From positions 1 to 23,023 of the IMG/VR virus record IMGVR_UViG_3300036787_000274: a stretch of 23,023 bases of DNA; one strand, 5' to 3'. The position numbers and the translations under genes are program-made. Under the pieces are notes generated by a model that ran no database searches, was not told where the DNA came from, and saw nothing but the letters and a program-made list of their open reading frames with translations. Positions within the stretch are counted from its first letter, which is position 1; each line of letters begins with the position of its first letter. Shown here piece after piece: positions 346-16,370 of this stretch. The stretch is from a virus.

Positions 346-420
346 TCCAGAGTAGCTCAATGGTAGAGCGCGCGGCTGTTAACCGTGATGTTGTAGGTTC
401 GAGCCCTACCTCTGGAGCCA
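346..420 (+). tRNA. tRNA-Asn (anticodon GTT), element insertion site
   Basis: A 75-base cloverleaf: acceptor TCCAGAG pairs with CTCTGGA, the anticodon loop reads CTGTTAA with anticodon GTT, the T arm contains GGTTCGAGCC, and the 3' end is G plus an encoded CCA. The D arm contains AGCTCAATGGTAGAGC. The 3' 27 bases are repeated at 14523-14549, so the gene is the integration target and its 3' end is restored by sequence shared with the element. The tRNA looks functional. Confidence 0.95.
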
Positions 421-1832: not shown

Positions 1833-2632
1833 AACCGTCAAAGAGCAAGATCGCCGTATTGCTCGCCGAGGCGGGCATACATCGCTGCGCGTGGCGGGGG
1901 CTGTGGCCGGCCATTCCCGTTCCGCTCCGTCACGATGAGTTCGACGAGCGGGCGTTGCGAGACGCTCCGTCCAGGCCGGTCTTCAACCTCGAAGACGGGA
2001 CTTCCACACTGATAGCACCGCCAGTCGTCCGGCCCGCATGGGTTGAAAGAATCCAGGAATGGCTGTTGCAGGAAATTCTGCCGATCAAAAAGGGCATGAC
2101 CTGGGGGTGCTACAAAGCAGCCCTCGCTGGCTACGCCTTCGCCGGCTGCGAGCACGAAGCACAAGGCCGGATGAAGGCCGCTGGTGGGCTGGTCTTCCAA
2201 GAGAGCGACGCCAGCGAGTCCGACAAAGAGGAACGGATCGCGGCGCATGTGGCAACGGCAGTGGAGCTCCGAGAATGTCGCGGTCGGCTCAGCAAGGAAG
2301 CGATGAAGAAGGGCTTTGCCTACGGCGTTAAATGCCGCCAGAGGGAGAAAGCCTGGACGCCTTCCGCCGAAATACAGTCTGCCCAAATCTACAAAGCGAT
2401 CCTTCTTAATTGGCGGCATGTTCACCAGCTCACCAGTCAGAAGGCCACAGCAAAGGAGATCGGCCTTTACATCGCGCAGCGTGCAAGAATGTCGAGCGGG
2501 AAGACTTACGCTGAGCACTTCAAACGTTCGGGGGTTACAACCTACCTGAAGCAGTTCCAGAAAATCTGCGGTCAGTTCGGGATTCCCCTGCCATCCCGCG
2601 GTCAGTATTTGAGGAAGACCCCCGCGACATAG
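1829..2632 (+). CDS. Protein of unknown function, coupled to integrase
   Basis: This 267-residue soluble protein starts at ATG 1829, overlapping the integrase stop (ATGA), with a good ribosome-binding site GAGAGGAGG about 8 bases upstream, so it is translationally coupled to the integrase. I do not recognise a domain. The sequence is basic and largely helical. The C-terminal half carries short segments rich in Lys, Gln and Arg (around AKEIGLYIAQRARMSSG, about residues 205-225) that could form a helix-turn-helix-like fold, but I cannot assign one. No signal peptide or membrane segment is visible. Its position directly behind int, within the integration module, suggests a role in recombination or its control; this is inference. 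Confidence 0.8.
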   Translation: MKPSKSKIAVLLAEAGIHRCAWRGLWPAIPVPLRHDEFDERALRDAPSRPVFNLEDGTSTLIAPPVVRPAWVERIQEWLLQEILPIKKGMTWGCYKAALAGYAFAGCEHEAQGRMKAAGGLVFQESDASESDKEERIAAHVATAVELRECRGRLSKEAMKKGFAYGVKCRQREKAWTPSAEIQSAQIYKAILLNWRHVHQLTSQKATAKEIGLYIAQRARMSSGKTYAEHFKRSGVTTYLKQFQKICGQFGIPLPSRGQYLRKTPAT

Positions 2633-2654
2633 TTTTGGAGGCGGTTTCAGGTTT

Positions 2655-2690
2655 TTGATTGTTAGGTGGTAACGGGCCTAAAGTAGGCCC
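2655..2690 (+). promoter_or_regulatory. Putative promoter with operator hairpin abutting the start codon
   Basis: A perfect 7-bp inverted repeat, GGGCCTA (2674-2680), loop AAG, TAGGCCC (2684-2690), ends on the base before ATG 2691. A possible promoter, -35 TTGATT (2655-2660) and -10 TAAAGT (2679-2684), would place the -10 inside the palindrome and give a very short leader. This is the arrangement expected of an operator for autoregulation by the small HTH protein encoded just downstream. There is no Shine-Dalgarno in front of the ATG. The promoter call is weak; the inverted repeat is certain. Confidence 0.45.
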
Positions 2691-2924
2691 ATGAGCGAAT
2701 ATGCAGAACAAGCAGCCCAGGAGGCTGGCCCACACGTAGAGGCGGATGACTTCCTCGACACTGTCGAACTTGCGGCCCGGGTTAAGGTATGCCCCGGAAC
2801 CATCAGTAACTGGCGGAAGACCGGTAAAATCCCTTTCATTCTGACGCCCGGAAGGCTCGTCAGGTTTCACTGGATCTCTGTCCGAAATGCCCTGCTTAGA
2901 ATGCAGAGGGGTGGAGTATTGTGA
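2691..2924 (+). CDS. Excisionase-type helix-turn-helix protein
   Basis: The 77-residue protein has a MerR/excisionase-type winged HTH at about residues 19-70: FLDTVELAARVKVCPGTISN, then WRKTGKIPFI, then a wing strand and a Trp/Val-rich helix. This is the pattern of the HTH_17 / Xis family, in which a small protein bends DNA at att arms or represses early promoters. In this element it would act as recombination directionality factor or as early-operon regulator. The gene opens the replication block: its stop overlaps the GTG of the next gene (GTGA). A 7-bp palindrome lies immediately before its ATG and may be its own operator. The fold call is good; the exact role is inferred. Confidence 0.85.
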   Translation: MSEYAEQAAQEAGPHVEADDFLDTVELAARVKVCPGTISNWRKTGKIPFILTPGRLVRFHWISVRNALLRMQRGGVL

Positions 2925-3850
2925 GCACCAGCATGGAAATCCCCACACGAGCCCTACCGGACGTGTCAACCCTCAGCACGGTCGAGACCGCCGACTTCGC
3001 CCGCCACGAGTCCACCATTGAGCGCGGGCTCAAAAACTTCATCGAGGTTGGCAACGCACTTTGGGACATCATTGACAGACGGCTTTATCGGCAGACGCAC
3101 GCGACGTTCAAGGACTACGTCGAGCAGCGATGGAACATGAGCGTACGGCGTGCCTATCAACTGGCCGAATGCACCGCGACACTCAAGGCGCTTCCGCCGA
3201 GTGTGCAAAATTTTGCACAGACTGAATCCCATGTTGCCGAGCTGGCCAGAATCCCACCTGATCATCGCGTTGAGGTTTTGAAACGAGTTGAGGCAAAGGC
3301 AAGGTCCACTAAGAGGAAGGCGACGGCGAAGGACATCCGCGAGGCCGCCGATACGGAAGACCCGGCAACCGCCCCGACTGTGGAGCGGTTCGAGTGCGAC
3401 CAATGCAGCGCCCGGTTTGAATCCGATGATGACGCCGTGAGTCTTTACGAATGCGCCGAATGTTGCACCATGTTCACGCAGGAAACATCGGCAAACGGTT
3501 CGGGACATAGCTGTCCTGACTGCAATAAATTCGGCGCGAAAGTTTCCGATCATGGTTGTCCTGAGTGCGACGAGGGCGAGCTGGAGGAGATCGGAGCCGA
3601 TGCAGCGCCACCAGGAGAGGACGCGACAGACCCGGCAGTCATCCAGCGTTCAAAGTCTCTGCACGGGCGCAATGATCGGCGGGTTACAAAACAATGGTGG
3701 TATCAGCGGGCGAGCGCAAAGGACCGTGGCGAATTCTTAGAGCAATGGATATTCAGGTCAAACAGGCCCGTCGTCGTTCCGAGTAAAGAGGAATTTCGGA
3801 AGGCCATCGACCGATGGATGGATGACGCGGTCAAGGAGGGCGGGAAATGA
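2921..3850 (+). CDS. ParB-like HTH protein fused to two zinc ribbons
   Basis: The 309-residue protein starts at GTG 2921, overlapping the upstream stop. Residues about 25-145 resemble a helical DNA-binding family found in plasmids and phages: an ERGLKNFIEVGNALWDI helix, then TFKDYVEQRWNMSVRRAYQL (HTH-like), then an ESHVAELARIPPDHR segment. Residues 158-217 hold four CxxC pairs (CDQC 159-162, CAEC 178-181, CPDC 198-201, CPEC 213-216), enough for two zinc ribbons. The C-terminal 80 residues are charged, ending WMDDAVKEGGK. Its place between the excisionase-like gene and the replicative ATPase, overlapping both, suggests replication initiation or partition. The combination is unusual and I cannot name the family. 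Confidence 0.85.
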   Translation: MSTSMEIPTRALPDVSTLSTVETADFARHESTIERGLKNFIEVGNALWDIIDRRLYRQTHATFKDYVEQRWNMSVRRAYQLAECTATLKALPPSVQNFAQTESHVAELARIPPDHRVEVLKRVEAKARSTKRKATAKDIREAADTEDPATAPTVERFECDQCSARFESDDDAVSLYECAECCTMFTQETSANGSGHSCPDCNKFGAKVSDHGCPECDEGELEEIGADAAPPGEDATDPAVIQRSKSLHGRNDRRVTKQWWYQRASAKDRGEFLEQWIFRSNRPVVVPSKEEFRKAIDRWMDDAVKEGGK

Positions 3851-5295
3851 GCGCCACAGAAAAAGCCGTTGCCGCGACGCTGCTTTCACCGAATGGATCG
3901 GACCTGACACCGAATCTTCGCAGGCTTCAGGACGCCGCCCCCGATGGCTGGGACGATTTGCGTTGCGGCGAGGTGGCAAAGGCGATCCGCGTTTTAAGGC
4001 AGCAGGGCAAACCCGTCCACCGGGCCGCCGTGATGGAGCTAGTCCAGTTCGAGGGCTCATCGCTATTCATCGGCGAGCTTGTAGGTAATGAGCTTCCGAT
4101 TGACCTGGCGGAGATCGAAGCGGAAAAGATTTGGAGCGCCTTCGTTCCGAAGCGGATGGCCGCTCTTTTCGAGGAGGGTGCGCAAGCGTTGCTCGCCGGC
4201 CCAACGGAGGCGGGTAGCATCGCCCAGCACGTCAAGGCCGAGCTGGAGTCCTTGCAGAACGAATCAAGGCCGAAATACACCACGCGGTCCATCGGGGACA
4301 TTGAAGTCCCAACGGACGGCGATCCAGCCGAATTGATTCGCCACCGGTTTCTCTGCAAGGGCGGCGGGCTGCTCCTGGCTGCTCCTTCTGGTGTCGGGAA
4401 ATCCACGTTCGCAATTCAGGCGATGCTCTGCTTTGGAGCCGGACGCGCCTGCTTCGGATTCATCCCGACACGCCCGTTGCGATCCGCTTACCTTCAGGGT
4501 GAGAACGACGACCCCGATTTAGCCGAACTGCGCGACGGGATTCTAACCGGGTTGAACTTCACCCCGGAGGAACGCGCCTTGGCTCTGCAAAACGTTCGAT
4601 TCGTGACCGTGGACGATGTTTGCGGCGAGGCGTTCATCCATCAGGTCGTTGAGCCGCTCTGCCGCGATGGCAAGCCGGACCTTGTTTGGATTGATCCACT
4701 GCTTTCTTTCATCGGTGGCGACGTGTCCCGGCAGGAAATTGTCTCGCCCTGGCTTCGGAATCACCTCAACCCGGTTCTCCACCGGCACGGAGTTGGCTGC
4801 GTGTTGATTCATCACACAAACAAACCGCCCAGCGGCAAAGAAAAACCGAACTGGCAGGCCGGCGACCTGGCGTATCTGGGCAGCGGCTCCGCCGAACTGG
4901 CGAACTGGCCGAGGGCCGTCATTGCCATCCGCAGCACCGGCAGCCATACCGTTTTTGAATTGTGCCTGGGCAAACGTGGTGCCCGCGCACACTGGCGCAA
5001 CCCTGACGGCTCTACGTGTTTTTCCCGGTTCATCGCACATGGCACGGATGGAATTTACTGGCGCGAGGCGGACCCGGAGGAATGCCCAGCGCCGGCAGGC
5101 CGCAAGGCACAGTCCTCAGTCGAGGACATTGTGCGGCTGCTGACCGTCCAGTTATCCACATCCGACTGGCAGAAAATGGCCCGGACGGAATGCGGCGTTT
5201 CCGAACGCAGCTTCTATCGGCTCAAGAAACAGGCTGAATCTACCCGCACAATCAGCCAATCAAAAATCGACCAAAAATGGTTCAAAACCCCATGA
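3847..5295 (+). CDS. Replicative helicase / RepA-like AAA ATPase with DnaB-type N-domain
   Basis: The 482-residue protein starts at ATG 3847, overlapping the previous stop. Residues about 1-110 look like the helical N-terminal domain of DnaB (MSATEKAVAATLL, later FIGELVGNELP). The ATPase core has Walker A APSGVGKS (179-186), Walker B DLVWIDP (279-283 region), and a LIHHTNKP motif (320-327) typical of RepA/KaiC-like hexameric ATPases. The last about 60 residues (from VEDIVRLLTV) look like a small winged HTH. It probably unwinds or loads at the element's origin. The iteron-like array begins two bases after its stop, the classic rep-ori order. I would call it RepA-like rather than true DnaB because it is short and lacks a clear DnaB C-terminal signature. 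Confidence 0.88.
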   Translation: MSATEKAVAATLLSPNGSDLTPNLRRLQDAAPDGWDDLRCGEVAKAIRVLRQQGKPVHRAAVMELVQFEGSSLFIGELVGNELPIDLAEIEAEKIWSAFVPKRMAALFEEGAQALLAGPTEAGSIAQHVKAELESLQNESRPKYTTRSIGDIEVPTDGDPAELIRHRFLCKGGGLLLAAPSGVGKSTFAIQAMLCFGAGRACFGFIPTRPLRSAYLQGENDDPDLAELRDGILTGLNFTPEERALALQNVRFVTVDDVCGEAFIHQVVEPLCRDGKPDLVWIDPLLSFIGGDVSRQEIVSPWLRNHLNPVLHRHGVGCVLIHHTNKPPSGKEKPNWQAGDLAYLGSGSAELANWPRAVIAIRSTGSHTVFELCLGKRGARAHWRNPDGSTCFSRFIAHGTDGIYWREADPEECPAPAGRKAQSSVEDIVRLLTVQLSTSDWQKMARTECGVSERSFYRLKKQAESTRTISQSKIDQKWFKTP

Positions 5296-5296
5296 A

Positions 5297-5429
5297 CTGC
5301 CAAAACTGCCAAAACTGCCAAAATACCCTTCTGGCAGTAACCGCCGGCGCTACTGCCACAACTGCCACCCGTAGGGGTGGCAGTGGCAGTGGCAGTAACT
5401 TTGCCAGCTCGGCATCGTGACTACTGCCA
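5297..5429. repeat. Iteron array, candidate replication origin
   Basis: Within 133 bp there are six CTGCCA sites (5297, 5306, 5315, 5353, 5362, 5424) and four inverted TGGCAG sites (5332, 5378, 5384, 5390). The first three form a perfect 9-bp direct repeat (CTGCCAAAA), and the three TGGCAG at 5378-5395 are spaced 6 bp. The sites at 5353-5367 and 5378-5395 face each other across GTAGG and could fold as a large hairpin. The array starts just after the stop of the RepA-like ATPase. This fits an origin with iterons for the Rep/ParB-like proteins; terminator function of the central hairpin is an alternative. Confidence 0.7.
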
Positions 5430-5431
5430 CA

Positions 5432-5656
5432 ATGCAACCTGAAGTCCATTACTTCCTGGTCCAGACCCCCGAAGCCTGCATGACGTTCATCGGTGGACCG
5501 CTGCGGGCTTCCAAGCCCGGTTTCGTGTGGCTCACGGCACCGGATGGGCGGCCCATGTTTGAAGTCAAAGCCGAATGCGTCACCCGTTCAACGAAAGAGG
5601 AAGTCGCCAAACGTATCATCGAGGATCGGCAGATAGCAAAGCAGGCGAACAATTGA
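5432..5656 (+). CDS. Small protein of unknown function
   Basis: A 74-residue protein if started at ATG 5432, or 79 from GTG 5417; neither has a Shine-Dalgarno. The N-terminal half (VHYFLVQTPEACMTFIGG) reads like alternating beta strands, and the C-terminus is a charged helix (TKEEVAKRIIEDRQIAKQ). I do not recognise a family. The start lies at the edge of the iteron array, so its expression may be tied to Rep binding there. Confidence 0.6.
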   Translation: MQPEVHYFLVQTPEACMTFIGGPLRASKPGFVWLTAPDGRPMFEVKAECVTRSTKEEVAKRIIEDRQIAKQANN

Positions 5657-5664
5657 AGTATGCG

Positions 5665-5811
5665 ATGTATGTGGCTTTTTTTGACCATATGAACGCGCGA
5701 CGCAAAGGGAAACTCGGCGAACTTGAGTTTGCCGCACTGCTACGGGCTCAAGGATTCACTGCGCGCCGTGGCCAGCAGTTCGCCGGCGTGAACATCCACC
5801 CAACCCAATGA
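5665..5811 (+). pseudogene. N-terminal remnant of a PDDEXK / Holliday-junction-resolvase-like nuclease
   Basis: The frame from ATG 5665 encodes 48 residues including KGKLGELEFAALLRAQGF and ARRGQQFAG. This is the characteristic N-terminal helix and strand of phage and archaeal Hjc-like PDDEXK nucleases, in which the Glu of GE(x)EFA is a metal ligand. In intact relatives the motif is followed by a segment with the catalytic Asp and E-x-K, which are missing: the frame runs into NIHPTQ and stops. A weak GAAG precedes the start by 6 bases. I read it as a nuclease truncated by deletion; a functional 48-residue protein is less likely. Confidence 0.5.
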
Positions 5812-5821
5812 AAGGAAAACC

Positions 5822-6256
5822 ATGACTGCCGAAGAAACGAAAACCGTAATGACCACGAAACCCGCAGTGCCAACCTACAAGCTCCGTGAATTTATCATCG
5901 AGGCCGGGGATTGTACCGCCTGGAAGAGCTTCCTTCTGGGAGAGCAAGGCCAAGGTGAAGTCGAAAGACTGTCGGGCACCGCTTCCATTGACCGCGAGCT
6001 GGACGTGCTCTGGCTGAAGTCCTGGTTTTGCCGCGACGGTGACCCCATCATCAAGACCGAGGCGCAAGTTGAGGCTGCGTTCGCAGAACTCCAACCTTGG
6101 ATGGGCACGCGATGGGCGGTCCAGTGGGATGATTTCGGCAGTGGCACGTTGCTCGACTGCCGGACGGGACAGCCTGCCGACTTGACTAACCCGGAAGCGG
6201 CTCAGGCGTGTGAAAAAGTTAGGCAGGCCCTCATCGCCAACAGGAGCGCCGCATGA
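5822..6256 (+). CDS. Protein of unknown function (144 residues)
   Basis: The start at ATG 5822 is well supported by AAAGGAAAA about 5-12 bases upstream. The protein is soluble and acidic, with a central stretch of Trp-rich sequence (AWKSFLLGEQG, LWLKSWFCRDGD, ELQPWMGTRWAVQW). I recognise no domain. It ends 35 bases before a likely promoter, so it may be the last gene of the replication block. The function is unknown; being small and non-enzymatic in appearance, it may modulate host or helper functions. Confidence 0.78.
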   Translation: MTAEETKTVMTTKPAVPTYKLREFIIEAGDCTAWKSFLLGEQGQGEVERLSGTASIDRELDVLWLKSWFCRDGDPIIKTEAQVEAAFAELQPWMGTRWAVQWDDFGSGTLLDCRTGQPADLTNPEAAQACEKVRQALIANRSAA

Positions 6257-6268
6257 CAGAAAACGTAT

Positions 6269-6296
6269 TTGCAGTACGAATACCCTTGGCTATATT
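6269..6296 (+). promoter_or_regulatory. Putative promoter of the packaging operon
   Basis: The -35 TTGCAG (6269-6274) and -10 TATATT (6291-6296) are separated by 16 bases. It lies in an AT-richer gap after the 144-residue gene and ahead of the first terminase small subunit gene. Initiation near 6303 would leave about 70 bases of leader to ATG 6372. This would separate a replication operon from a packaging operon. Confidence 0.5.
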
Positions 6297-6336
6297 TCCA
6301 AATGATTTATGGCATTATTGGCCACTACCGGCGACA

Positions 6337-6358
6337 GTGGCAACACACTGTGGCAACA
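6337..6358 (+). repeat. GTGGCAACA direct repeat upstream of terminase small subunit
   Basis: GTGGCAACA occurs at 6337-6345 and 6350-6358, a spacing of 13 bp. It lies between the promoter and the ATG at 6372. Terminase recognition (pac or cos) sites often lie in or next to the small-subunit gene, so these may be binding sites for packaging or for autoregulation. The function is inferred. Confidence 0.35.
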
Positions 6359-6371
6359 TCCGATTGATTTT

Positions 6372-6869
6372 ATGAGTGAAAAGCCGAAAACGTCACTGCC
6401 GGAAAGAACACGAAAACCCGGACGTCCGACTGACTACACGCCGGACCTGGTGCGGAAGTTCTGTGAGGTGGTGGGCGAGGGTGTGCCCCTTATTTACGCC
6501 TGCCGGTGCGTAGGGGTTTCCAAGCAGGCGGTCCGCAACTGGCGACTGGCGCACCCGGACTTCGAGGAACTGATTCAGGACGCAATAGCGAAGGCTATCC
6601 AGGTCCGGTTGGATGTCATCAAAAAGTCGATGCAATCCAAGGACGAAAACGTGTCACTCCGTGCCGCGTGCTGGTGGCTCACACACTGCCCGGACGTCAA
6701 GGGTTACTACAGCAGCGGGGTTGAAATCAGCGGACCCGACGGCGCGCCGCTGGCGATGCAAAGCGTGGTTGTGTATTTGCCGGCCAAAGGTGGTAGCAGC
6801 GCAATCGAGGTCGGCGGGGACGGCCGGAAGGAGATCGAGAACACGAATAAAACGAAAGGACAATCATGA
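6372..6869 (+). CDS. Terminase small subunit-like DNA-binding protein (copy 1)
   Basis: The 165-residue protein starts at ATG 6372; an upstream in-frame ATG (6309) would add 21 residues but overlaps the leader repeats. After GRPTDYTP comes an HTH of the terminase small-subunit type: CEVVGEGVPLIYACRCVGVS, then KQAVRNWRLAHPDFEELI. It continues with a long helix (DAIAKAIQVRLDVIKKSMQ) and the segment ACWWLTHCPDVKGYY. Such proteins form rings that bind pac/cos sites and deliver DNA to the large subunit. It aligns along its length with the protein at 8848-9312 (GRP...T, NWR..HP.F.E), so the element has two divergent copies. The stop overlaps the next start (ATGA). Confidence 0.75.
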   Translation: MSEKPKTSLPERTRKPGRPTDYTPDLVRKFCEVVGEGVPLIYACRCVGVSKQAVRNWRLAHPDFEELIQDAIAKAIQVRLDVIKKSMQSKDENVSLRAACWWLTHCPDVKGYYSSGVEISGPDGAPLAMQSVVVYLPAKGGSSAIEVGGDGRKEIENTNKTKGQS

Positions 6870-7462
6870 GATACAAGGCAACTGAAACCGATATTGAAAA
6901 CGCAAAGGCCATCGCCTCCCAGCTTCGGGCCGGGCTCGACGGGCTGAGCCGGGCAGAGGGCCAGATGAAGACGGCGGTAACTCGCCTCGAACAGTTGGCG
7001 CTGAGCCTGCATGTGGACTTTCTCGCCTTGACCGGCACCGACGATGCCGCCTTGGACGCATACGCGCTCAAGGCCGCTCGCCTGGAGGTGTTGAAAAGGT
7101 GGATCAACTCAGCCGGGCCACTGGGAGATTCTATGCAGCAACTCCAGCGCACACTCTGGGCCGCGAAGGAGTCAATCGAATCCATCGCGCAGCCCCGCAG
7201 CGTCGAGGAAAGCGCTCTGGCGGCTTGCGACTGGACGGAATTGCTACGGCGCATCCCGGATATCGATTTGCCGAATCAGATTAAGACCGTCCGCAACACC
7301 GGCAATCAGGTTGTGCGCGACCTGGATCAACTATTGTCCTGCCGGGTTGGCCTGTTGCTCGGTGATGACGAGCGCCGCGACGGCGTGTTGAGAATTTCCG
7401 GCCGTGGAGTTGTGCGCCAATTGGCAGCGAATGAACGTTCCGCCGGTGTGGCTTTTGAATGA
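6866..7462 (+). CDS. Helical protein of unknown function
   Basis: A 198-residue protein, ATG overlapping the previous stop, so coupled to the terminase small subunit. The first 130 residues are strongly helical and likely coiled coil (KAIASQLRAGLDGLSRAEGQ, then repeated Leu/Ala heptad-like spacing). The C-terminus (RRDGVLRISGRGVVRQLA) is short strands. No membrane segment, metal-binding motif or known domain is seen. A head-assembly interfering or scaffolding-like function is conceivable in a satellite, but the sequence itself does not show it. Confidence 0.75.
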   Translation: MRYKATETDIENAKAIASQLRAGLDGLSRAEGQMKTAVTRLEQLALSLHVDFLALTGTDDAALDAYALKAARLEVLKRWINSAGPLGDSMQQLQRTLWAAKESIESIAQPRSVEESALAACDWTELLRRIPDIDLPNQIKTVRNTGNQVVRDLDQLLSCRVGLLLGDDERRDGVLRISGRGVVRQLAANERSAGVAFE

Positions 7463-7510
7463 TCGAGGCCGCGATTAGCACTCTAACAATCCAACCCGTT
7501 GAATAAACTT

Positions 7511-7708
7511 ATGACAAACCCCAAAAAAGTGTCTGAACTGCGCCCGCACGATTTAACTATTTCCGAGTTGCGGGCCGAACGGGTCCGCTTGCAGGACATG
7601 GTCTCGGCCGGTACCGCACGCTATGTCGATGCCAGCAGGCTGCACCACGTGCTTCAATGCATCCAGCATATTGAGTCCGCCCAAGCCGAGTCGGCGGCGG
7701 CGACGTGA
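7511..7708 (+). CDS. Small helical protein of unknown function
   Basis: A 65-residue protein from ATG 7511 (69 from an in-frame TTG at 7499), 48 bases after the previous gene. It contains LTISELRAERVRLQDMVSAG and a second helix RLHHVLQCIQHIESAQAE, that is, a likely helical hairpin. No Shine-Dalgarno is evident. Its stop overlaps the possible GTG start of the next gene. I recognise no family. Confidence 0.6.
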   Translation: MTNPKKVSELRPHDLTISELRAERVRLQDMVSAGTARYVDASRLHHVLQCIQHIESAQAESAAAT

Positions 7709-8637
7709 TCAATTTCTCCCTGCCGGCTCTGGCCCGTGGATGCGAGCCGCAGCCGCCCACGGGGCGGTCCTTTGTCGGTGGGGAGTTCAGTTTTGAAACC
7801 ATGAGCAAGAGCCGAACATTGAACCTTGGACCGGAAGCCGAGCGCCAGCTCGAAAGGGTGGCCGTCCACGAGTCTGGGCACGAGACGGTTGCCGAGGCTT
7901 TCGGACTGAAGGCGGCTTCCTTCGTCGCGGGCCGGGCCGATGGAGTTTGTACGCATCGGCTGGGCACCCCGCACCAGAACGCGGCCATCAGTTGGGCCGG
8001 GGCACTCGCCGAGGATATGCTCGGTGTCCGGGCTGAACTGCGGACGCTGCCCACCGTGCCGCTATCGAGGGGAACACTTCCCGCATGGTTCGATCAGATG
8101 ATGACGACGAAAGGCAAGCGGCAACTGTCCGCCGCCGACCGCGAAGGGATCGAGGGCTACCCCGTCCAGTCTGCTTGCGATGCCTCATTCAATATCCTTT
8201 CTGAACGGATCGACGCCCTGAGATTCTCGGCTGCGTTGCTGGTCAGGGAAAGTAGAGAACAGGTCTTCCAGTCGATCACTCGTGGCGGCTCCGGTGAGGC
8301 GGACCGGCTCGACGTGGAAATGCATATCCACCAGGTCCGTCAGGCTGCAATCGAGGCCCGGCAACGGGCGGACGCGGCTGAGTTTGACGTGAAATGGGAA
8401 AGTATGGTGCCCCGGACTTTCCCGGTGACAACCGAGCACTTCTTGAAGCGCATTGTTTCGGCTGGGCAATCATCGACCTGGGAGCACGCACAACGCCTAT
8501 TAGACTTCGCGGAGCACCGACGGGTGCGGCACGGCGAACAGGATTTCCTCGGGATTCAGTTCGAGACCGTGGAATGTTGGCTCTATTTCGTGAACGCTTA
8601 TCGTGATTGGTTTGAACGCCGGAGGGTTGCGGCATGA
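7705..8637 (+). CDS. Stand-alone M41-like zinc metallopeptidase
   Basis: The protein has 310 residues from GTG 7705 or 278 from ATG 7801; the longer start overlaps the upstream stop, the shorter begins nearer the conserved part. VAVHESGHETVAEAFG (53-68) contains HESGH, an HExxH zinc-binding site in the sequence context of the FtsH-type M41 peptidase (xVAxHExGHxxVA). AGALAEDMLG (98-107) matches the GxxAEEL region, and LSAADREGI carries Asp145 as the likely third zinc ligand. No AAA ATPase domain or membrane segment is present, unlike FtsH. The C-terminal half is helical and unassigned. Lying between the two terminase small-subunit genes, it may process a helper or satellite protein. Confidence 0.78.
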   Translation: MINFSLPALARGCEPQPPTGRSFVGGEFSFETMSKSRTLNLGPEAERQLERVAVHESGHETVAEAFGLKAASFVAGRADGVCTHRLGTPHQNAAISWAGALAEDMLGVRAELRTLPTVPLSRGTLPAWFDQMMTTKGKRQLSAADREGIEGYPVQSACDASFNILSERIDALRFSAALLVRESREQVFQSITRGGSGEADRLDVEMHIHQVRQAAIEARQRADAAEFDVKWESMVPRTFPVTTEHFLKRIVSAGQSSTWEHAQRLLDFAEHRRVRHGEQDFLGIQFETVECWLYFVNAYRDWFERRRVAA

Positions 8638-8855
8638 GCTGGAACGATGAAGCCGACCACGCGCCGTCATTTCCTGCGCTGAACCGATGGCGCTGGACGG
8701 CCGTCCAGGTACTCGCGAACGAATTCGACGATGCGCCGAAAGAATCGTTGCGCCGATTGCGGATGAACTTGGAATTGATCGGCGACGAAGGCGACTGGCG
8801 GTGCCGGGCGGCGGCGGAACACATCGCCGAACTTGAAGGAAAAAAACATGAGTGA
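8634..8855 (+). CDS. Small protein of unknown function
   Basis: A 73-residue protein whose ATG overlaps the peptidase stop (ATGA) and whose end overlaps the start of the second terminase small subunit by 8 bases. It is Trp- and charge-rich (NRWRWTAVQVLANEF, then ESLRRLRMNLELIGDEGDW) and looks helical. I recognise no domain. The tight packing on both sides makes it a real member of the packaging operon. Confidence 0.72.
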   Translation: MSWNDEADHAPSFPALNRWRWTAVQVLANEFDDAPKESLRRLRMNLELIGDEGDWRCRAAAEHIAELEGKKHE

Positions 8856-9312
8856 GACAATAAAGACAGACAGCGATCTTCCCGACCTGGGCGGCCGTCC
8901 TCGGAAATTCACGGCTGATAGGGTGCAGCGGATTCTTGAGTGTGCAGAGCTTGGGATGCCGTTGAGCCTTTGCGCGGCTGCGGTGAGCATCTCCCAGCAA
9001 TCGCTGATCAACTGGCGCAGGAACCACCCGGAGTTTCAGGAGGCGTTGGAACAAGCCATCGCCCGGGGGTGCGACACCCGTCTCAGGAAAATCAAATCTG
9101 CCAGCGATACGGGTGACTGGCGAGCGAGCGCCTGGCTCCTGGAGCATTGCCAGCCCGAACATTTCTCAAAATCGCGGGTCCAAATCGAAGCGGTGGGAAT
9201 CTTGGAACACAGCTTTGTCATTCCGCAGGAAACACTCACCCAAATCGCCGAGGCGCGAGCAGAACATGAGCGAAAGAAACTCGAATCAGGAAACGGATCG
9301 GGCACAGTTTGA
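8848..9312 (+). CDS. Terminase small subunit-like protein (copy 2)
   Basis: The 154-residue protein starts at ATG 8848 with GAAGGAAAAA just upstream. GGRPRKFTADRVQRI leads into an HTH (CAELGMPLSLCAAAVSISQQ, then SLINWRRNHPEFQEAL), as in phage terminase small subunits that recognise the packaging site. It resembles the copy at 6372-6869 in domain order and spacing but is clearly diverged. Its last 47 bases overlap the start of the terminase large subunit, the usual terS-terL arrangement, so this copy is the more likely packaging partner. The C-terminal tail from IPQETLTQIAEARAEHERKK is a helix that may bind the large subunit. Confidence 0.82.
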   Translation: MSETIKTDSDLPDLGGRPRKFTADRVQRILECAELGMPLSLCAAAVSISQQSLINWRRNHPEFQEALEQAIARGCDTRLRKIKSASDTGDWRASAWLLEHCQPEHFSKSRVQIEAVGILEHSFVIPQETLTQIAEARAEHERKKLESGNGSGTV

Positions 9313-10672
9313 ACTACTGGCCACGTGCCCCGGATTCATCCGCGGCGCGCTGCGGCTCGAAAGCTATCCCTGGGCGGAAGCCATCTTCCACGACCTTGAC
9401 CGGCGTGGCGCGGCTGTCGCGGTCAAGGCGTGCAACGGCGCGGGCAAGACGGAGCGCGTCGCCGCACCCGTGGCGCTCTGGCACGCATCGGTTTTCCCGA
9501 AGAGTTTGACCATTGCAACCGCCGGCGTGTTCCGCCAAGTCAAGGAGCAGCTTTTCCCAGCCATCCGGTCGCACGCGCACAAGTTCCGAGGCTGGACATT
9601 CAACGAGTGCGAAGTCATCACACACAACGGATCGCGCATCCTCGGATTCAGCACAGATGAGCCGGGCAAGTTTGAGGGGTGGCACGCTGACAATCTCTTG
9701 GTGGTCGCCGACGAGGCCAAGTCCATTCCAGACTCAATCTTCGAGGCGGTCGAACGCTGCCAGCCGACGCGCCTGTTGCTGCTGAGCTCGCCGGGCGGGC
9801 GCTCGGGATTTTTCTACTCCGCGTTCAATGAGCGCCGGAAATTCTTCCGGCAGCACACCGTCACCGCCGCGGATTGCCCGCACATTTCCCCGGCCTGGGT
9901 AACGGAGCAGATCGAGAAGTACGGCCCGGATCACCCGCTGGTCCGCAGCATGATCTACGCGGAGTTCATGGACCTGGGTGGTGACTCCGCGGTGATACCG
10001 TTGACCTTCGTGGAACGATGCTTGCAGACCCCGCCTCAGTTCAGCGACACGGGCGAGGTTCAAGCCTTCTGCGATTTTGCCGCAGGCGGTGACGAGAACG
10101 TGCTGGCCGTCCGGCGCGGAAACCGGGTTGAACTGGTCGCGTGCTGGCGCGAGCCGGACACAATGAAGGCTGTTGGCCAGTTCATTATTCACAGCAAAGC
10201 GCAGAAACTGGAGGCGCACCAGATCATGGGCGACGAAGGCGGGTTGGGAATTGCCGTGTGCGACCGGCTCGCCGAATCTGGCTGGGACATCGTGCGCGTG
10301 AATAACGGATCGCCCGCCAGCAAGCCGGATGCGTACACCAACCTGGCTGCGGAAACCTGGTTCGAGGGCCGCACGTTGATCGAGAAGCAGCAAGTCATCT
10401 TGCCGAACGATCCGGCGCTTATCGCGCAGCTCACTTCCCGCCTCGGCTGGCCAGACAGCCGGGGGCGTCTGCAACTTGAGCCCAAATCGGCCCTGCGTGC
10501 GCGGGGGCTGCCTTCGCCGGACCGGGCTGACGCCGTGTTGGGCTGCATGTGGCAACCCTGGATCGGTGGTGCGATTCGCAACGCCTCGGAGTTGATGGGC
10601 GGCAGCAGCGACACCGATGCGAGACCATGGGGGTGGGTTGGCGATGACCGGCTGAACGACAGTGATTTTTAA
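9266..10672 (+). CDS. terL: Phage terminase large subunit (ATPase and nuclease)
   Basis: The 468-residue protein, from ATG 9266, is the DNA-packaging motor. ATPase: Walker A CNGAGKT (56-62), Walker B LLVVADE (144-150) with catalytic Glu150, coupling motif LLLSSPGG (171-178). Nuclease (RNase H-like): acidic residues at CDFAAGGDEN (Asp270), IMGDEGG (Asp323) and SPDRADAVLG (Asp419/Asp422). All key residues are present and the length is normal, so it looks functional. The frame extends upstream to 9113 but that part overlaps the small subunit; the ATG at 9266 follows GAGGCG. No portal or capsid gene follows. I infer that it packages the element into a helper phage's procapsids; a relic of a lost prophage is the alternative. 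Confidence 0.92.
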   Translation: MSERNSNQETDRAQFELLATCPGFIRGALRLESYPWAEAIFHDLDRRGAAVAVKACNGAGKTERVAAPVALWHASVFPKSLTIATAGVFRQVKEQLFPAIRSHAHKFRGWTFNECEVITHNGSRILGFSTDEPGKFEGWHADNLLVVADEAKSIPDSIFEAVERCQPTRLLLLSSPGGRSGFFYSAFNERRKFFRQHTVTAADCPHISPAWVTEQIEKYGPDHPLVRSMIYAEFMDLGGDSAVIPLTFVERCLQTPPQFSDTGEVQAFCDFAAGGDENVLAVRRGNRVELVACWREPDTMKAVGQFIIHSKAQKLEAHQIMGDEGGLGIAVCDRLAESGWDIVRVNNGSPASKPDAYTNLAAETWFEGRTLIEKQQVILPNDPALIAQLTSRLGWPDSRGRLQLEPKSALRARGLPSPDRADAVLGCMWQPWIGGAIRNASELMGGSSDTDARPWGWVGDDRLNDSDF

Positions 10673-10676
10673 AATC

Positions 10677-10877
10677 ATGCCGAGGACCACCAGACAGCAC
10701 AAAGCAAGGCGAGCGGGCCGAACAGAGCCAGCCTCGGACGTGCCGCTGACGATCGCGACCAAGGCCGGGAAAGCGCAGTTCAAGAAATTAGCTTGGCATT
10801 TTCGGGCGCTGGGCTGGATTCGGGCGCCACACCCGGACCAGGGCGGGTTCGATCGACGGAGTGCAAGTCAACCTTGA
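10677..10877 (+). CDS. Possible small basic protein after terL
   Basis: A 66-residue frame from ATG 10677, four bases after the terminase stop, very basic at its N-terminus (MPRTTRQHKARRAGR), then a helix AGKAQFKKLAWHFRALGW. There is no Shine-Dalgarno. The C-terminus (HPDQGGFDRRSASQP) looks like low-information sequence, so the gene may be truncated by a frameshift. It may be a fragment of a packaging or head gene, but I cannot identify one. Confidence 0.35.
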   Translation: MPRTTRQHKARRAGRTEPASDVPLTIATKAGKAQFKKLAWHFRALGWIRAPHPDQGGFDRRSASQP

Positions 10878-10937
10878 ACGGTTGGCGCTGGGGCTTTATA
10901 TCTTTCGGTGCAGTCAGACAAAAAAGGGATGCAAATT

Positions 10938-11240
10938 ATGAGCGAGCCACAAATCGAAGCCAACATCTGCGAAATCGACGGCGACTATTACCAAGTCCAC
11001 CTCCGCGCAGTCCCTCGGGTGGGTGAACTAATTGAACTCACGTCGATCAACCAGGAAGCCACGCACGCGGAGACCAAGCACTACCAGGTTGTCCACGTGA
11101 TGCACAAGATGCGCGACTTGTCCGAAGCGCCCGGCGCCCCTAAAACCGGCTGGCATTTTGTCGAGGTGTTCGTGAAGCCATCGCGGAGCAAGTTTTTCAA
11201 GTTGGGTAAAACGCCGAACGGGCCAGCAGCAAGGAACTGA
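10938..11240 (+). CDS. Small protein of unknown function
   Basis: A 100-residue protein; ATG 10938 is chosen because AAAAAGGG lies 9 bases upstream. The sequence alternates beta strands and short loops (CEIDGDYYQVHLRAVPRVGE, then YQVVHVMHKM, then WHFVEVFVKPSRSKFFKLG), suggesting a small beta-barrel or sandwich. It could be a small nucleic-acid- or protein-binding domain; no family is recognised. It is separated from terL by about 260 bases with only one weak small frame. Confidence 0.7.
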   Translation: MSEPQIEANICEIDGDYYQVHLRAVPRVGELIELTSINQEATHAETKHYQVVHVMHKMRDLSEAPGAPKTGWHFVEVFVKPSRSKFFKLGKTPNGPAARN

Positions 11241-11260
11241 ACCAGGAGAAAGAAAAATCT

Positions 11261-11545
11261 ATGCAACAATTCGTAGTCGTTATCACAACAGACAAGCCGT
11301 TTAACGAAGAGCATCACCCAAGGTTTTTTGAGTTTATTTTGTCCAAGCCTCACGCAGTGAGGATTTCCGATGACACATTTTGTTTTGCTCAGAAAGACGG
11401 GATATCGTTCGCATACGCTGATTTGCTAAAGCACTTGAAAGAGAACGATGAGGTTGCTCTGTTCCAGGTTTCCCGCGCACAGTGGGGAACGTCGCGATCG
11501 GATTTTGATTCACGAATGAAGGAGGTGTTCCGACCATCTACTTAG
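11261..11545 (+). CDS. Small protein of unknown function, last rightward gene
   Basis: A 94-residue protein from ATG 11261 with AGGAGA about 11 bases upstream, 20 bases after the previous gene. The pattern is a ferredoxin-like alternation: strand QFVVVITTDK, helix HPRFFEFILSK, strand VRISDDTFCFA, helix ADLLKHLKENDEV, strand ALFQVSRAQWG. That layout recalls small Cas2/SinR-like folds, but no catalytic residues support such a call. Its base use is a little AT-richer than its neighbours. The function is unknown. Confidence 0.7.
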   Translation: MQQFVVVITTDKPFNEEHHPRFFEFILSKPHAVRISDDTFCFAQKDGISFAYADLLKHLKENDEVALFQVSRAQWGTSRSDFDSRMKEVFRPST

Positions 11546-11554
11546 CGGGGAAAT

Positions 11555-11661
11555 GAACGTCCCGTTCGTCGGCACGGATTAAGTGACGGTAGCCGGGGCT
11601 TCTGCGATACTACCCGCGTCGCATCTCCAATCCGGCACGTTGTTGCATCCGTGACTTAAAC
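11555..11661. other. Gap between convergent genes with imperfect inverted repeats
   Basis: This 150-bp gap separates the rightward operon from the leftward cargo genes. It has a short hairpin GAACG/CGTTC (555-559 with 563-567 of 11 kb) and a longer imperfect inverted pair: GATTAAGTGACGG (11577-11589) against CCGTGACTTAAAC (11649-11661). These may be bidirectional termination signals or a protein site. No classical T-tract terminator is present. Confidence 0.35.
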
Positions 11662-11695
11662 GTTGTGGATCGCCAAGACCGCGAGTGCGCATGAG

Positions 11696-12598
11696 TCACT
11701 GCCCCTTAGGAGCATCCCCTGCTGCCTTTCGTCCCATTATGCTGCTAAGAGCAGCCTTTACCTCCCTCCGATCTGTGAGCGCAATCTGTATCCGATCTGC
11801 CACCTCACAGAGTATCACTTCTGCTTCCTGTGCTCGCGCGAGGCACTCAGCATCATCGAGTTGATGGATGCCCTCACTCAGCACATCGTGGAGGATGGCA
11901 AGCGGATTGTGTCCATCGATTAGTAAAACGGCCGGGATCGCGGAGACCTCTCGCAGCATCTCAATTGCCTTTGAAAACTGTTTTTCAGTCTGCGCCTTTT
12001 CCAGTAGTTGGATTTGCTGTGGTTGAGCCTTCGTTGCTTTTGCGATCTCAAGCACCGAACTGATCAGCTCAAACTTCGTGTTCTCCACAATTCTGCGATA
12101 GTAGGCGTACGCGCCTATTCCAAGTCCACGCGCTATTGCGCGCCTTGCTTGCAGGAAATTCTCCCGGTTCGACTCACCAATAACTTGGAAAAGACGTTTG
12201 GGGATCGGTTGACCGAAAGGAGGCGCCTGGTAGATTTTCGTGCAGATCCCGGGAACGAGATGCTCTCCCTTCCGCTCTGCCTTGAGACCGAAAATCTTTG
12301 AGGACGACAAACAGTCTGTGCAGTTATATACGGCGTAGACATAGAAGTCCGCGCCCCGCTGGAATTTGGCCGAGGCACCGAAAACATGCCGCCGGATGCC
12401 CTCACAATTCTCGTGGTCGCAATGTACACGGATAGCCCCTGGGAATGCAAGATCCCCGAATTCTGGTTGGTCAAAGAGTTTCTGGACATGCCTCGGCGAG
12501 TGCAGAGGCACGTCCTCCAGCAATTGAGTCAGCGAGTATATGCCCGGCGGTTCAAGACTGATGGCCTTTGCGGCCACCGGATTGTTGGGTTCACTCAT
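11696..12598 (-). CDS. Conserved protein of unknown function with zinc-binding Cys pairs
   Basis: A 300-residue leftward protein starting at ATG 12598, no clear Shine-Dalgarno. The N-terminal half has two Cys pairs, C60/C65 and C93/C96 (YNCTDCLS), likely binding zinc. The C-terminal half matches a conserved pattern I know from uncharacterised bacterial proteins: GIGAYAYYRRIVEN (160-173), a KQFSKAIEML helix, IPAVLLIDGHNPLAILH (221-237), then LSEGIHQLDDAECL (240-253). The arrangement recalls DUF4145-like helical domains often linked with restriction and abortive-infection genes. It is the last gene of the cargo block beside a superinfection-immunity gene, so an anti-phage role is plausible, though inferred. 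Confidence 0.78.
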   Translation of the reverse strand: MSEPNNPVAAKAISLEPPGIYSLTQLLEDVPLHSPRHVQKLFDQPEFGDLAFPGAIRVHCDHENCEGIRRHVFGASAKFQRGADFYVYAVYNCTDCLSSSKIFGLKAERKGEHLVPGICTKIYQAPPFGQPIPKRLFQVIGESNRENFLQARRAIARGLGIGAYAYYRRIVENTKFELISSVLEIAKATKAQPQQIQLLEKAQTEKQFSKAIEMLREVSAIPAVLLIDGHNPLAILHDVLSEGIHQLDDAECLARAQEAEVILCEVADRIQIALTDRREVKAALSSIMGRKAAGDAPKGQ

Positions 12599-12641
12599 CG
12601 ATTAATAGCTTGCCAGATCGAAGGCCCATGACAAGTCCGGC

Positions 12642-13058
12642 CTAAGATCCGCGAGCGCGCTCGCGGTAGATGGCCCAGACTAGAGCACCAACCCAGCCAA
12701 AGAGGGTCCATCCGAGGAGGAAATTGATAAGCATTATGGCGGACGAGTTTCGATGACGCCGTTTCTCAGCGATGAGAGTCGGCAGAAAATAGATCGCCGC
12801 CGCAAGCCACCCAAATAACACCGCCGCCAACAAGTTCCCTTCCGTCGTGATGGCGATGTAAACACCGAAAATATAGCCGATGACGAGCAGTGCGACAGCA
12901 TAACCAACCCAGAAGCGGATGCGTAATTGCGGTGCGGATGGCGTTGGCATTTGGTGTGGGTCAATAAACCACTGCCCGCAAGTCGGGCATCTGATCATGC
13001 CTGAAACGACCTGCGTCGGTTCGTGCTCCGCCTTGCACTGAGGACAGCAAACACTCAT
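12642..13058 (-). CDS. Superinfection-immunity (T4 Imm-like) membrane protein with zinc ribbon
   Basis: This 138-residue protein starts at ATG 13058. The N-terminus is a zinc ribbon (C5xxC8 and C24xxC27). Three membrane segments follow at about 49-71, 76-96 and 107-131. The last part, YFLPTLIAEKRRHRNSSAI followed by INFLLGWTLFGWVGALVWAI, is the signature of the superinfection-immunity family: PT(L/I)IA, RxHRN, LNxxLGWTxxGWxxALVWA. In T4, Imm sits in the inner membrane and blocks DNA entry by related phages. Here it could protect the host cell, or the satellite's niche, from superinfecting phage. A perfect 18-bp palindrome CCGCGAGCGCGCTCGCGG (12649-12666) overlaps the end of the coding region. 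Confidence 0.85.
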   Translation of the reverse strand: MSVCCPQCKAEHEPTQVVSGMIRCPTCGQWFIDPHQMPTPSAPQLRIRFWVGYAVALLVIGYIFGVYIAITTEGNLLAAVLFGWLAAAIYFLPTLIAEKRRHRNSSAIMLINFLLGWTLFGWVGALVWAIYRERARGS

Positions 13059-13197
13059 GAGATCATTTTCAACGTCCAGAGCTCAGCCACAGCCACCGGC
13101 GGCGAGCTTCCGAAACCAAGGTGAACTTTATGACTAAATCAACCATGCGAAACTATAGGGGCAGTGGCTGTTGCCTGCAGCGTTTTAGGCCACGTGG

Positions 13198-13641
13198 TCA
13201 TTCAGCGATGAACTTCTCGAAGCAGTGAGGGCAGTAATTCTCTCCACGCCTCAAAGTCGCAATCCAGAGACTCTTGCCACACAACGGGCAGGGGATCGCC
13301 GAATCCGGGGCAGGCTTGGGCTTCGGCGGCGGTGGAATGGGCTTCGGCGGCGGTGGAATGGGCGCGACTGGCGGAACGGTGGCTGCTATAAGAGGTGCGG
13401 GGACAGCCTTGGCGATGGCGACCAAATCGCCTCCGCAGTGCATACATTTGCTCGCTCCCTCGGCAACAACACCTCGACAATGCGGACATTTCGGTCGGAA
13501 ATCCTCCATCAGCGCAACCAGAACCCAGCCGATTGGTCCTAAAAGAGCTGACCAGATGACGCCGGAATCAACACGGTCCCTGTACTTACCTATCAACCCA
13601 CCAATCACGATGCAAACAATCCATGCGATAAAGAATTCCAT
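13198..13641 (-). CDS. Membrane protein with zinc ribbons and a proline-rich linker
   Basis: A 147-residue protein from ATG 13641, chosen over an upstream TTG because GAGAAAGAG precedes it. Residues 1-46 form two membrane segments (FFIAWIVCIVIGGLIG and WSALLGPIGWVLVALM). Then come a zinc ribbon (C52xxC55, C66xxC69), an Ala/Val/Pro linker with repeated IPPPPKP units (95-110), and a second zinc ribbon (C118xxC121, C137xxC140). The GPIGW membrane motif with a zinc ribbon is common in small bacterial membrane proteins of unknown function. It shares topology elements with the adjacent Imm-like protein and probably works with it at the inner membrane. Confidence 0.75.
   Translation of the reverse strand: MEFFIAWIVCIVIGGLIGKYRDRVDSGVIWSALLGPIGWVLVALMEDFRPKCPHCRGVVAEGASKCMHCGGDLVAIAKAVPAPLIAATVPPVAPIPPPPKPIPPPPKPKPAPDSAIPCPLCGKSLWIATLRRGENYCPHCFEKFIAE
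13318..13359 (-). repeat. 21-bp tandem repeat, two exact copies
   Basis: The unit starting GGGCTTCGGCGGCGG at 13318-13338 is repeated exactly at 13339-13359 and encodes the duplicated proline-rich IPPPPKP linker on the minus strand. Slippage would change the linker length in steps of seven residues. Confidence 0.8.
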
Positions 13642-13671
13642 CGTTTGCTCTTTCTCGTGGTGCTGTGGCAA

Positions 13672-14170
13672 CTAACGAACCACACTGAGCCACGCCGAGC
13701 CAAAAACCGTCAACCGCGGATGCGGAACTGAAGCCGTCATCGGCCTTGGTTGCAGCGCCTTCGCAGCCCCCGGACTGGGACTGTAGCGGATTGCTACACG
13801 GGCACCCTGCCAGACGCAGCGACGGCCGGCAAGCCCGAAGTACCCTTGCACCAGTCTCGCCACCGGCAGATGGTCGCAAGCCTCGCGTTTAAAACGCGCC
13901 ACAACACGCCGCGACTCCACTCCGGCATAATTCCCGCCCACCCGAAGCCCAAACCCCGCAGGGCAGCCAGCCAGCGCGCAGGACGAGGCCGAAACGGGCC
14001 GGGTGACGAGGCGTCTCGGGGAGCGTCGCAAGGCCGAACGGTGGGTCACGGGCGCCCGGACAGCGGGGCGGAAGCGCGGGGAACGCTCGGCGGTCCCGGA
14101 GGCAGAGCGCGCCGCGTTACCAACTAGCAATAACGTTGCGCAAGCAGAGCAAATTCTGGCTCCGTTGCGG
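13672..14170. other. Gene-free GC-rich stretch upstream of the cargo genes
   Basis: About 500 bases with no frame that looks coding; open frames on both strands are low-complexity GC shadows. It holds TGTAGC/GCTACA (13782-13787 with 13793-13798), a hairpin with a 5-base loop, and CGCGTTT/AAACGCG (13884-13890 with 13892-13898). The promoter of the leftward cargo block must lie in its left part. Being non-coding, near the element end and conserved in no evident protein, it is a candidate location for a packaging (cos/pac) site, which I cannot demonstrate. Confidence 0.4.
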
Positions 14171-14174
14171 GGTA

Positions 14175-14310
14175 TGCGGGGTTTGTTTTGCGGTTTCCTA
14201 TAAAGTCCCTATATACACACGCGAGGGGGGTTTTAGGGAAACACCGTTTTAAACCCCGCAAACCCCGCGGGCGTTTAGTTTTTTGAACCCGCTAAGGGGC
14301 TGAGCGCCCC
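14175..14310. repeat. Right-end inverted repeats around an AT-rich centre
   Basis: TGCGGGGTTTG (14175-14185) is mirrored by CAAACCCCGC (14259-14268), and the right arm is itself a tandem (AAACCCCGCA then AACCCCGCGG, 14251-14270). Between them lies CCTATAAAGTCCCTATATAC. A separate hairpin GGGGC/GCCCC lies at 14296-14300 and 14306-14310. Such a paired-arm design could serve termination of readthrough, a packaging site, or protein binding near the att end. Confidence 0.45.
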
Positions 14311-14400
14311 CTAAAGGTTCACTAAACTTTTCCGCCCGTTTGGGAGCCACTAAAGGTTCACTAAAGCCGGGTCCGCCCTAAAGGTTCACTAAACGTTTTC
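14311..14400 (+). repeat. Three right-end terminal repeats (candidate arm sites)
   Basis: CTAAAGGTTCACTAAA occurs exactly three times, at 14311-14326, 14350-14365 and 14378-14393. The third extends with CGTTTT and then matches the left-end copy at 457-478. Each repeat holds two CTAAA half-sites 11 bp apart. They lie 120-210 bp inside attR and just upstream of the promoter inferred for the integrase. The design matches arm-type integrase sites, where a single protein may both recombine and autoregulate. Confidence 0.7.
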
Positions 14401-14434
14401 TTTTACCTATTTATAGCTAGATAGCGGAAATAGC

Positions 14435-14497
14435 TTTACTTTATAGGGATTTAGGCGTATAAATGGAAATAGGTTTTAATACCTAGACATAACTATG
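14435..14497 (+). promoter_or_regulatory. Promoter and start codon of the integrase in the circular form
   Basis: The -35 TTTACT (14435-14440), 17-base spacer and -10 TATAAA (14458-14463) form a good promoter in AT-rich DNA. ATG 14495 opens a frame (MNNDLDTPKIGSSPTSGA) that passes through the 27-bp core in the same phase as the integrase frame at 394-420: codon 14522-14524 corresponds to 393-395. After excision, 14522 is followed by the core and then 421 onward, giving one uninterrupted integrase of about 488 residues. In the integrated state the frame meets TAA at 14558-14560. A weak hairpin TAGGT/ACCTA (14470-14474 with 14481-14485) lies in the leader. Confidence 0.7.
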
Positions 14498-14522
14498 AAT
14501 AACGACCTAGATACCCCTAAAA

Positions 14523-14549
14523 TAGGTTCGAGCCCTACCTCTGGAGCCA
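14523..14549 (+). repeat. attR core (27-bp direct repeat, right copy)
   Basis: Exact copy of the tRNA-Asn 3' end at 394-420. No tRNA 5' half is present here, so this copy is a by-product of integration and marks the right end of the element. Host-side sequence begins at 14550. Confidence 0.92.
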
Positions 14550-14603
14550 ATTTCCTTTAAACCCGAACTTATTTCACCACTTTTGTAACCCTCTGGAATC
14601 AAG

Positions 14604-16261: not shown

Positions 16262-16275
16262 ATTTTCGTTTGCGC

Positions 16276-16304
16276 ATTGTAGCGTCATACGCTTCAAGTT
16301 GCAA
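16276..16304 (-). promoter_or_regulatory. Promoter of the AbiE operon
   Basis: On the minus strand, -35 TTGCAA (16299-16304), a 17-base spacer and -10 TACAAT (16276-16281) form a near-consensus promoter. Initiation near 16269 leaves only about 8 bases before ATG 16261, which supports that start and suggests a nearly leaderless message. AbiEi probably represses here. Confidence 0.65.
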
Positions 16305-16370
16305 ACACAATTAGAATCCGCTCCCTTTGCAAAATGGACCGCCCCGAAGACGGCACGGTTCGTGAGAAAC

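Follow-up and report, generated by a model that had tools for sequence, protein, structure and literature searches.

Several mobile elements have been described in which integration changes either the expression or the sequence of the integrase gene. In ICEclc and ICEKp1, the int gene lies at the tRNA-proximal end of the element, a promoter located at the opposite end is joined to it only in the excised circle, and the tRNA promoter is available to it when the element is integrated; ICEKp1 is thus a precedent for both tRNA readthrough of int and a circle promoter (PMC13023037). In these elements int retains its start codon, preceded by a 5' untranslated region and about 200 bp away from the tRNA (PMC13023037). 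In Mx8, which encodes a bacterial tyrosine integrase, the int frame extends across attP and the protein is altered by integration, the part exchanged being the 3' end of the gene and hence the C-terminus (PMC6070905). The Mx8 and SSV integrases were both noted as extending across attP by the authors of Islander. In SSV-type elements attP also lies inside the int frame, and integration breaks the gene and cuts the protein into IntN and IntC; these suicidal integrases have been described as exclusive to archaea (PMC8371274). Finally, phage satellites such as the PICIs are small elements at tRNA sites with an int gene and an excisionase-like regulator, and the part of the PICI source drawn on here describes no split int start (PMC10111431).

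The element described here resembles all of these systems and differs from each. As in ICEclc and ICEKp1, int is tRNA-proximal and a promoter-like site occupies the opposite end; however, the ATG and the N-terminal codons are also found at that opposite end and the core would be translated; whereas integration leaves the int coding sequence of ICEclc and ICEKp1 unchanged, 21 of 22 mapped elements of the present family would gain an in-frame ATG extension in the circle. In contrast to Mx8, the exchange concerns the 5' end, with promoter and start codon. As in the SSV-type elements, attP lies inside the int frame, but the host is bacterial, the loss on integration would be limited to a short N-terminal stretch predicted to be disordered, and the body of the protein stays together with an internal start. 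Like the PICIs the element is small, lies at a tRNA site and has int and an excisionase-like gene; it also has terminase-like genes, and cargo varies widely across its family. Searches of the open-access literature turned up no description of an int start-codon exchange.

The element and its target site

The window, i.e., the whole stretch of 23,023 nucleotides that was analyzed, is a record of a virus collection and contains an element inserted in a tRNA-Asn gene with host DNA on both sides (Table 1). The 27-bp core repeat, TAGGTTCGAGCCCTACCTCTGGAGCCA, was recovered by repeat detection as 31 nt with 97% identity; because its attL and attR copies are identical, the sequence of the inferred circle is unambiguous. 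An empty attB was looked for in relatives, and the boundaries were obtained instead from a same-site pair. The Limisphaerales MAG bog_1460 (G001) carries, at the same tRNA-Asn site, a different element whose int is 62% identical to that of the window. Its right flank is 99% identical to the window's and its left flank nearly identical, and the similarity of the two loci ends at the core on either side, which makes the element boundaries sound. Directly past attR, and thus at the same tRNA site, positions 14550-19238 of the window contain AbiEii/AbiEi-like genes and a TOTE-type primase-helicase with DUF559, likely a cluster with a role in defence or conflict; the first 900 bp of this cluster are 99% identical in G001. 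The right flank also holds an open frame resembling what we take to be a pyruvate:ferredoxin oxidoreductase.

Table 1. Positions of the main features within the 23,023-nucleotide window
Feature	Position	Strand	Remarks
tRNA-Asn (GTT)	346..420	+	Gene targeted by the element and made whole again at the left end; the att core corresponds to its 3' part
att core, left copy (attL)	394..420	+	Translated in the int frame as GSSPTSGA
Whole element	421..14549	+	14129-bp unit, equal to the circle size
Left leader	421..509	+	In-frame stretch from core to internal start; predicted disordered
Left CTAAA-type repeat (probable arm-type site)	455..477	+	Inside the int frame
Conserved internal start codon GTG (short integrase form)	510..512	+	Alignment column with GTG 52, ATG 22, TTG 1 of 84
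Tyrosine recombinase body (int)	510..1832	+	Similarity search, conserved catalytic residues, structure model
HTH_17/excisionase-like gene	2691..2924	+	Relative present in 17 of the 21 other mapped elements
Three right-end CTAAAGGTTCACTAAA repeat copies (probable arm-type sites)	14309..14398	+	Repeat detection
Promoter-like TTTACT-17-TATAAA	14435..14463	+	TTTACT 14435-14440, TATAAA 14458-14463; points into the core
ATG and initial codons of the predicted N-terminal extension specific to the circle	14495..14522	+	MNNDLDTPK plus one base of the codon that follows
att core, right copy (attR)	14523..14549	+	Right boundary of the element

The int gene is the first gene of the element and reads away from the tRNA. 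Its product matches PHROG 1 (E 9.7e-26) and has the R...K...RH...Y signature of tyrosine recombinases, with R317, K344, H403 and Y434 invariant. Downstream lie the HTH_17 excisionase-like gene, a gene for an AAA_25 protein and terS/terL-like genes; most of the cargo is not common to the relatives. Two of the genes are small-terminase-like (6309-6866 and 8833-9309) and accompany the terL-like gene, with no recognised capsid genes in the element. Near the right end, on the opposite strand, an Imm_superinfect protein (superinfection-immunity domain) is encoded at 12642-13058. A query with terL led to L003, a contig of a MuA/MuB-like transposable phage with a terL that shares 67% identity with that of the window; the contig is unrelated to the window beyond this gene and was set aside.

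A family of related integrases was collected through the relatives of G001 and comprises 84 members, with fetched loci and two viral contigs included. Members were found in the same order as G001, Limisphaerales, and because 387 other sampled genomes of the phylum gave no match at E <= 1e-60, the family seems confined to this order. A scan of viral contigs with int as a single protein returned nothing, and searches with int gave one 25%-identical match among phages and none among plasmids. A tRNA or tmRNA gene is adjacent to int in 72 of the 84 members (Asn, Lys, Leu, Pro, Gln, Val, Arg, His, Gly, Met, SeC and tmRNA), and both ends could be mapped, through an identified attR, in 22 elements of 5.5-17.9 kb at Asn, Lys, Val, Pro, Leu, Gln and Arg tRNAs. 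Pattern scans with the right-end and left-leader motifs and with the window's own attP junction found no excised circle or attP contig. Inspection of members with no detected tRNA (among them L044, L051, L058, L061 and L074) for an attP-like junction yielded no clear circle, and those of their contigs that were tested had no terminal overlap. In L074 (upstream of int), L058, L044 and L061, int is preceded by a tRNA 3' fragment only and not by a full tRNA; these fragments may mark secondary sites or junctions in tandem, or may be what is left of decayed tRNAs.

Continuity of the int frame across the core

In the integrated state the int frame is open from 345 to 1832, and its first ATG (360) lies inside the tRNA. 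When the ends are joined at the core, the frame opened by ATG 14495 continues into int and specifies 488 residues with no stop, the predicted protein being MNNDLDTPKIGSSPTSGA-IFIREND..., also written MNNDLDTPKIGSSPTSGAIFIREND.... The different element of G001 likewise has an in-phase ATG at its right end (MQTQPDITSSNQPETPNIGSSPTSGANFPNENGG). The sequence-only reading had proposed that int is split across attP and that this ATG opens a frame crossing the core in the int phase; both proposals are borne out, in the window and in the family. In a single sequence a phase match by itself is a 1-in-3 event. The check named by the sequence-only reading, for relatives with a right end that lacks such an ATG, came out in its favour: all 22/22 mapped elements have an in-phase ATG before the core, and the frame is open through to int in 21/22, against 0/22 and 4/22 for the other two frames. 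This agreement of phase across the family is therefore not due to chance. The single exception, L060, has the ATG in phase and a stop codon in the left leader, which is absent from its sister L056.

The same continuity is seen at the left end, where the int frame crosses the tRNA or tmRNA 3' end in 69 of the 72 members with such an adjacent gene. As a control, tRNA/tmRNA-adjacent integrases of about 30% identity from the same genomes were counted from coordinates, and their frame crosses in 6/15. Of the left leaders, 3/70, 67/70 and 28/70 contain stops in frames 0, 1 and 2, respectively, frame 0 being that of int. Since three members (L012, L060 and L098) carry an int-frame stop there, the long form may be dispensable for some elements, or some may have decayed.

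Members of the family are related and the counts are thus not independent events, so that matched phase shifts and length changes constitute stronger evidence than the counts themselves. The core is read in three different frames by sub-clades of the family (left phase 2, 0 or 1), and the phase of the right-end ATG always matches: sixteen elements use one phase, L053, L106 and L115 a second, and three tRNA-Pro elements a third. The tree requires at least 5 phase changes, which means that matched shifts at both ends arose more than once. Moreover, the distance from the core to the internal start ranges from 74 to 130 nt across the family, and within the main phase class the distances are 74, 77, 80, 83, 86, 89, 92 and 101 nt, all of which keep the frame. 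Matched phases together with length differences in multiples of three are what selection for one continuous frame would predict.

The internal start and the leader

The sequence-only reading had also denied the integrated gene a credible start, and this part of it was wrong. The alignment places GTG 510 in a column that is ATG or GTG in nearly all members, so that the integrated gene keeps a credible start; several other members have an ATG or GTG one codon before this column. Where the column encodes valine the codon is GTG in 52/52 cases, compared with 37.6% GTG among the valine codons in the rest of int (P about 1e-22). In the AlphaFold model disorder extends up to the internal start, and folded structure sets in directly behind it. 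No enrichment of Shine-Dalgarno sequences before the internal start was detected across the family.

Substitutions in the left leader are distributed over codon positions as 94/79/120, and this weak third-position bias indicates that the sequence of the extension is little constrained. A 'DTxxTQ' motif, considered as protein conservation, was dropped because it coincides with GACACA arm-type repeats, which in the relatives occupy the same place as the left CTAAA-type repeat of the window. A conserved palindrome, TTTTCCTNAGGAAAA(TGAGG), stands just past the tRNA end, in the first ~20 nt of the leaders (e.g., L057, L099, L110), and is followed at fixed spacing by paired ACACA repeats, inside the reading frame. 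The palindrome and the ACACA repeats are probable sites for recombination proteins. Given the little sequence constraint and the overlap with probable arm-type repeats, the extension may serve mainly as a spacer whose translation allows initiation to take place at the circle promoter.

The promoter-like site at the right end

A promoter-like sequence before the right-end ATG, as claimed from the window alone, is present (Table 1), and it has a positional counterpart in the family. A TTG is found exactly 36-37 nt before the in-phase ATG in 15/21 elements, and at 59-62 nt in the others, except in the window (TTT). In those 15 the layout is a -35 element, 16-17 nt, a -10 element and then 7-9 nt to the ATG, whereas in the remaining elements the ATG stands about 24 nt further on, mostly behind an AAAGG-like motif. 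The placement of the TTG 36-37 nt before the ATG suggests that it belongs to a -35 box and that the message is leaderless. Generic promoter scores were dropped as evidence: their mean (8.5) was no better than that of shuffles (8.1) and individual scores were near background, so that the case for a promoter rests on position. Between the -10 box and ATG 14495, a hairpin-like inverted repeat, TAGGTTTTAATACCTA, occurs at 14470-14485 of the window and could be an operator or an RNA element.

Proposed mechanism and alternative explanations

The sequences provide the architecture, the phase and openness of the frame, the conservation of both starts and the fixed position of the promoter-like TTG, and from these we infer transcription, translation, two protein forms and excision as follows. 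The attP of the family lies within the 5' part of the int frame. Once the element is excised as a circle, the right-end promoter and ATG would be joined through the tRNA-derived core to the int body, producing an N-extended integrase, in many relatives presumably from a leaderless transcript. Integration would then part promoter, ATG and extension, at the right end, from the int body, which is left beside the tRNA at the left end; this separation, also put forward by the sequence-only reading, is supported by the architecture. The circle-specific transcript would be switched off as soon as the integration product forms, and the integrated gene would make a shorter protein from the internal ATG/GTG (GTG 510 in the window), presumably at low level by tRNA readthrough, which would serve later excision together with the HTH_17 excisionase-like protein. 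Because the internal start is conserved right before the folded part, integration probably swaps a long for a short form instead of leaving a startless int. We regard it as likely that the circle's own promoter drives an N-extended integrase and that integration strips off promoter, ATG and extension, leaving the short form. A more far-reaching version is distinctly tentative: the two states would have two integrases, the N-extended one from the circle dedicated to integration and the short one of the integrated state to excision, with direction residing partly in the N-terminus and the tRNA 3' end coding for part of the long form.

The alternative closest to described systems is that only the promoter is exchanged, as in ICEclc and ICEKp1, translation always beginning at the internal ATG/GTG and the upstream open frame being incidental. 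The near universality of the internal start and the weak constraint on the leader amino acids are in line with it, as is ICEKp1 itself, in which the promoter is swapped with the coding region unchanged (PMC13023037). However, an incidental frame accounts poorly for an ATG that is in phase in every mapped element and open to int in all but one, for a phase that is matched in three core frames, and for an avoidance of stops that is confined to one frame. In addition, in elements whose right-end ATG follows the -10 hexamer by 7-9 nt, the message would start with that ATG, a layout that favours initiation there. Promoter exchange alone is accordingly judged improbable. Chance continuity maintained by common descent, with no selection, is given practically no weight: stops are often absent from tRNA 3' ends, 9/22 elements have frame 2 open across the core as well, and the members are related, but length changes at both ends keep the frame, compensating phase shifts occurred more than once, and the frame of the control integrases crosses in a minority of cases.

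Self-inactivation in the SSV sense, in which integration abolishes int function and excision needs outside help, is very unlikely. Promoter and first start are indeed lost on integration and archaeal precedents exist (PMC8371274), but the whole body, with its conserved catalytic residues and its own conserved start, stays on one side and only a disordered extension is removed.

Biological meaning

An exchange of the start codon and the N-terminus would add to the promoter exchange of ICEclc and ICEKp1 and to the C-terminus exchange of Mx8. If the proposed mechanism is true, it constitutes a one-shot switch in which the integration product physically removes the promoter and the start codon that made the enzyme. 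This would be a family of bacterial elements whose int reading frame is broken near its 5' end by integration, and in which a fragment of a tRNA gene serves as coding sequence in all three frames. In integrated genomes, int genes of this kind would be annotated with wrong N-termini, located inside the tRNA.
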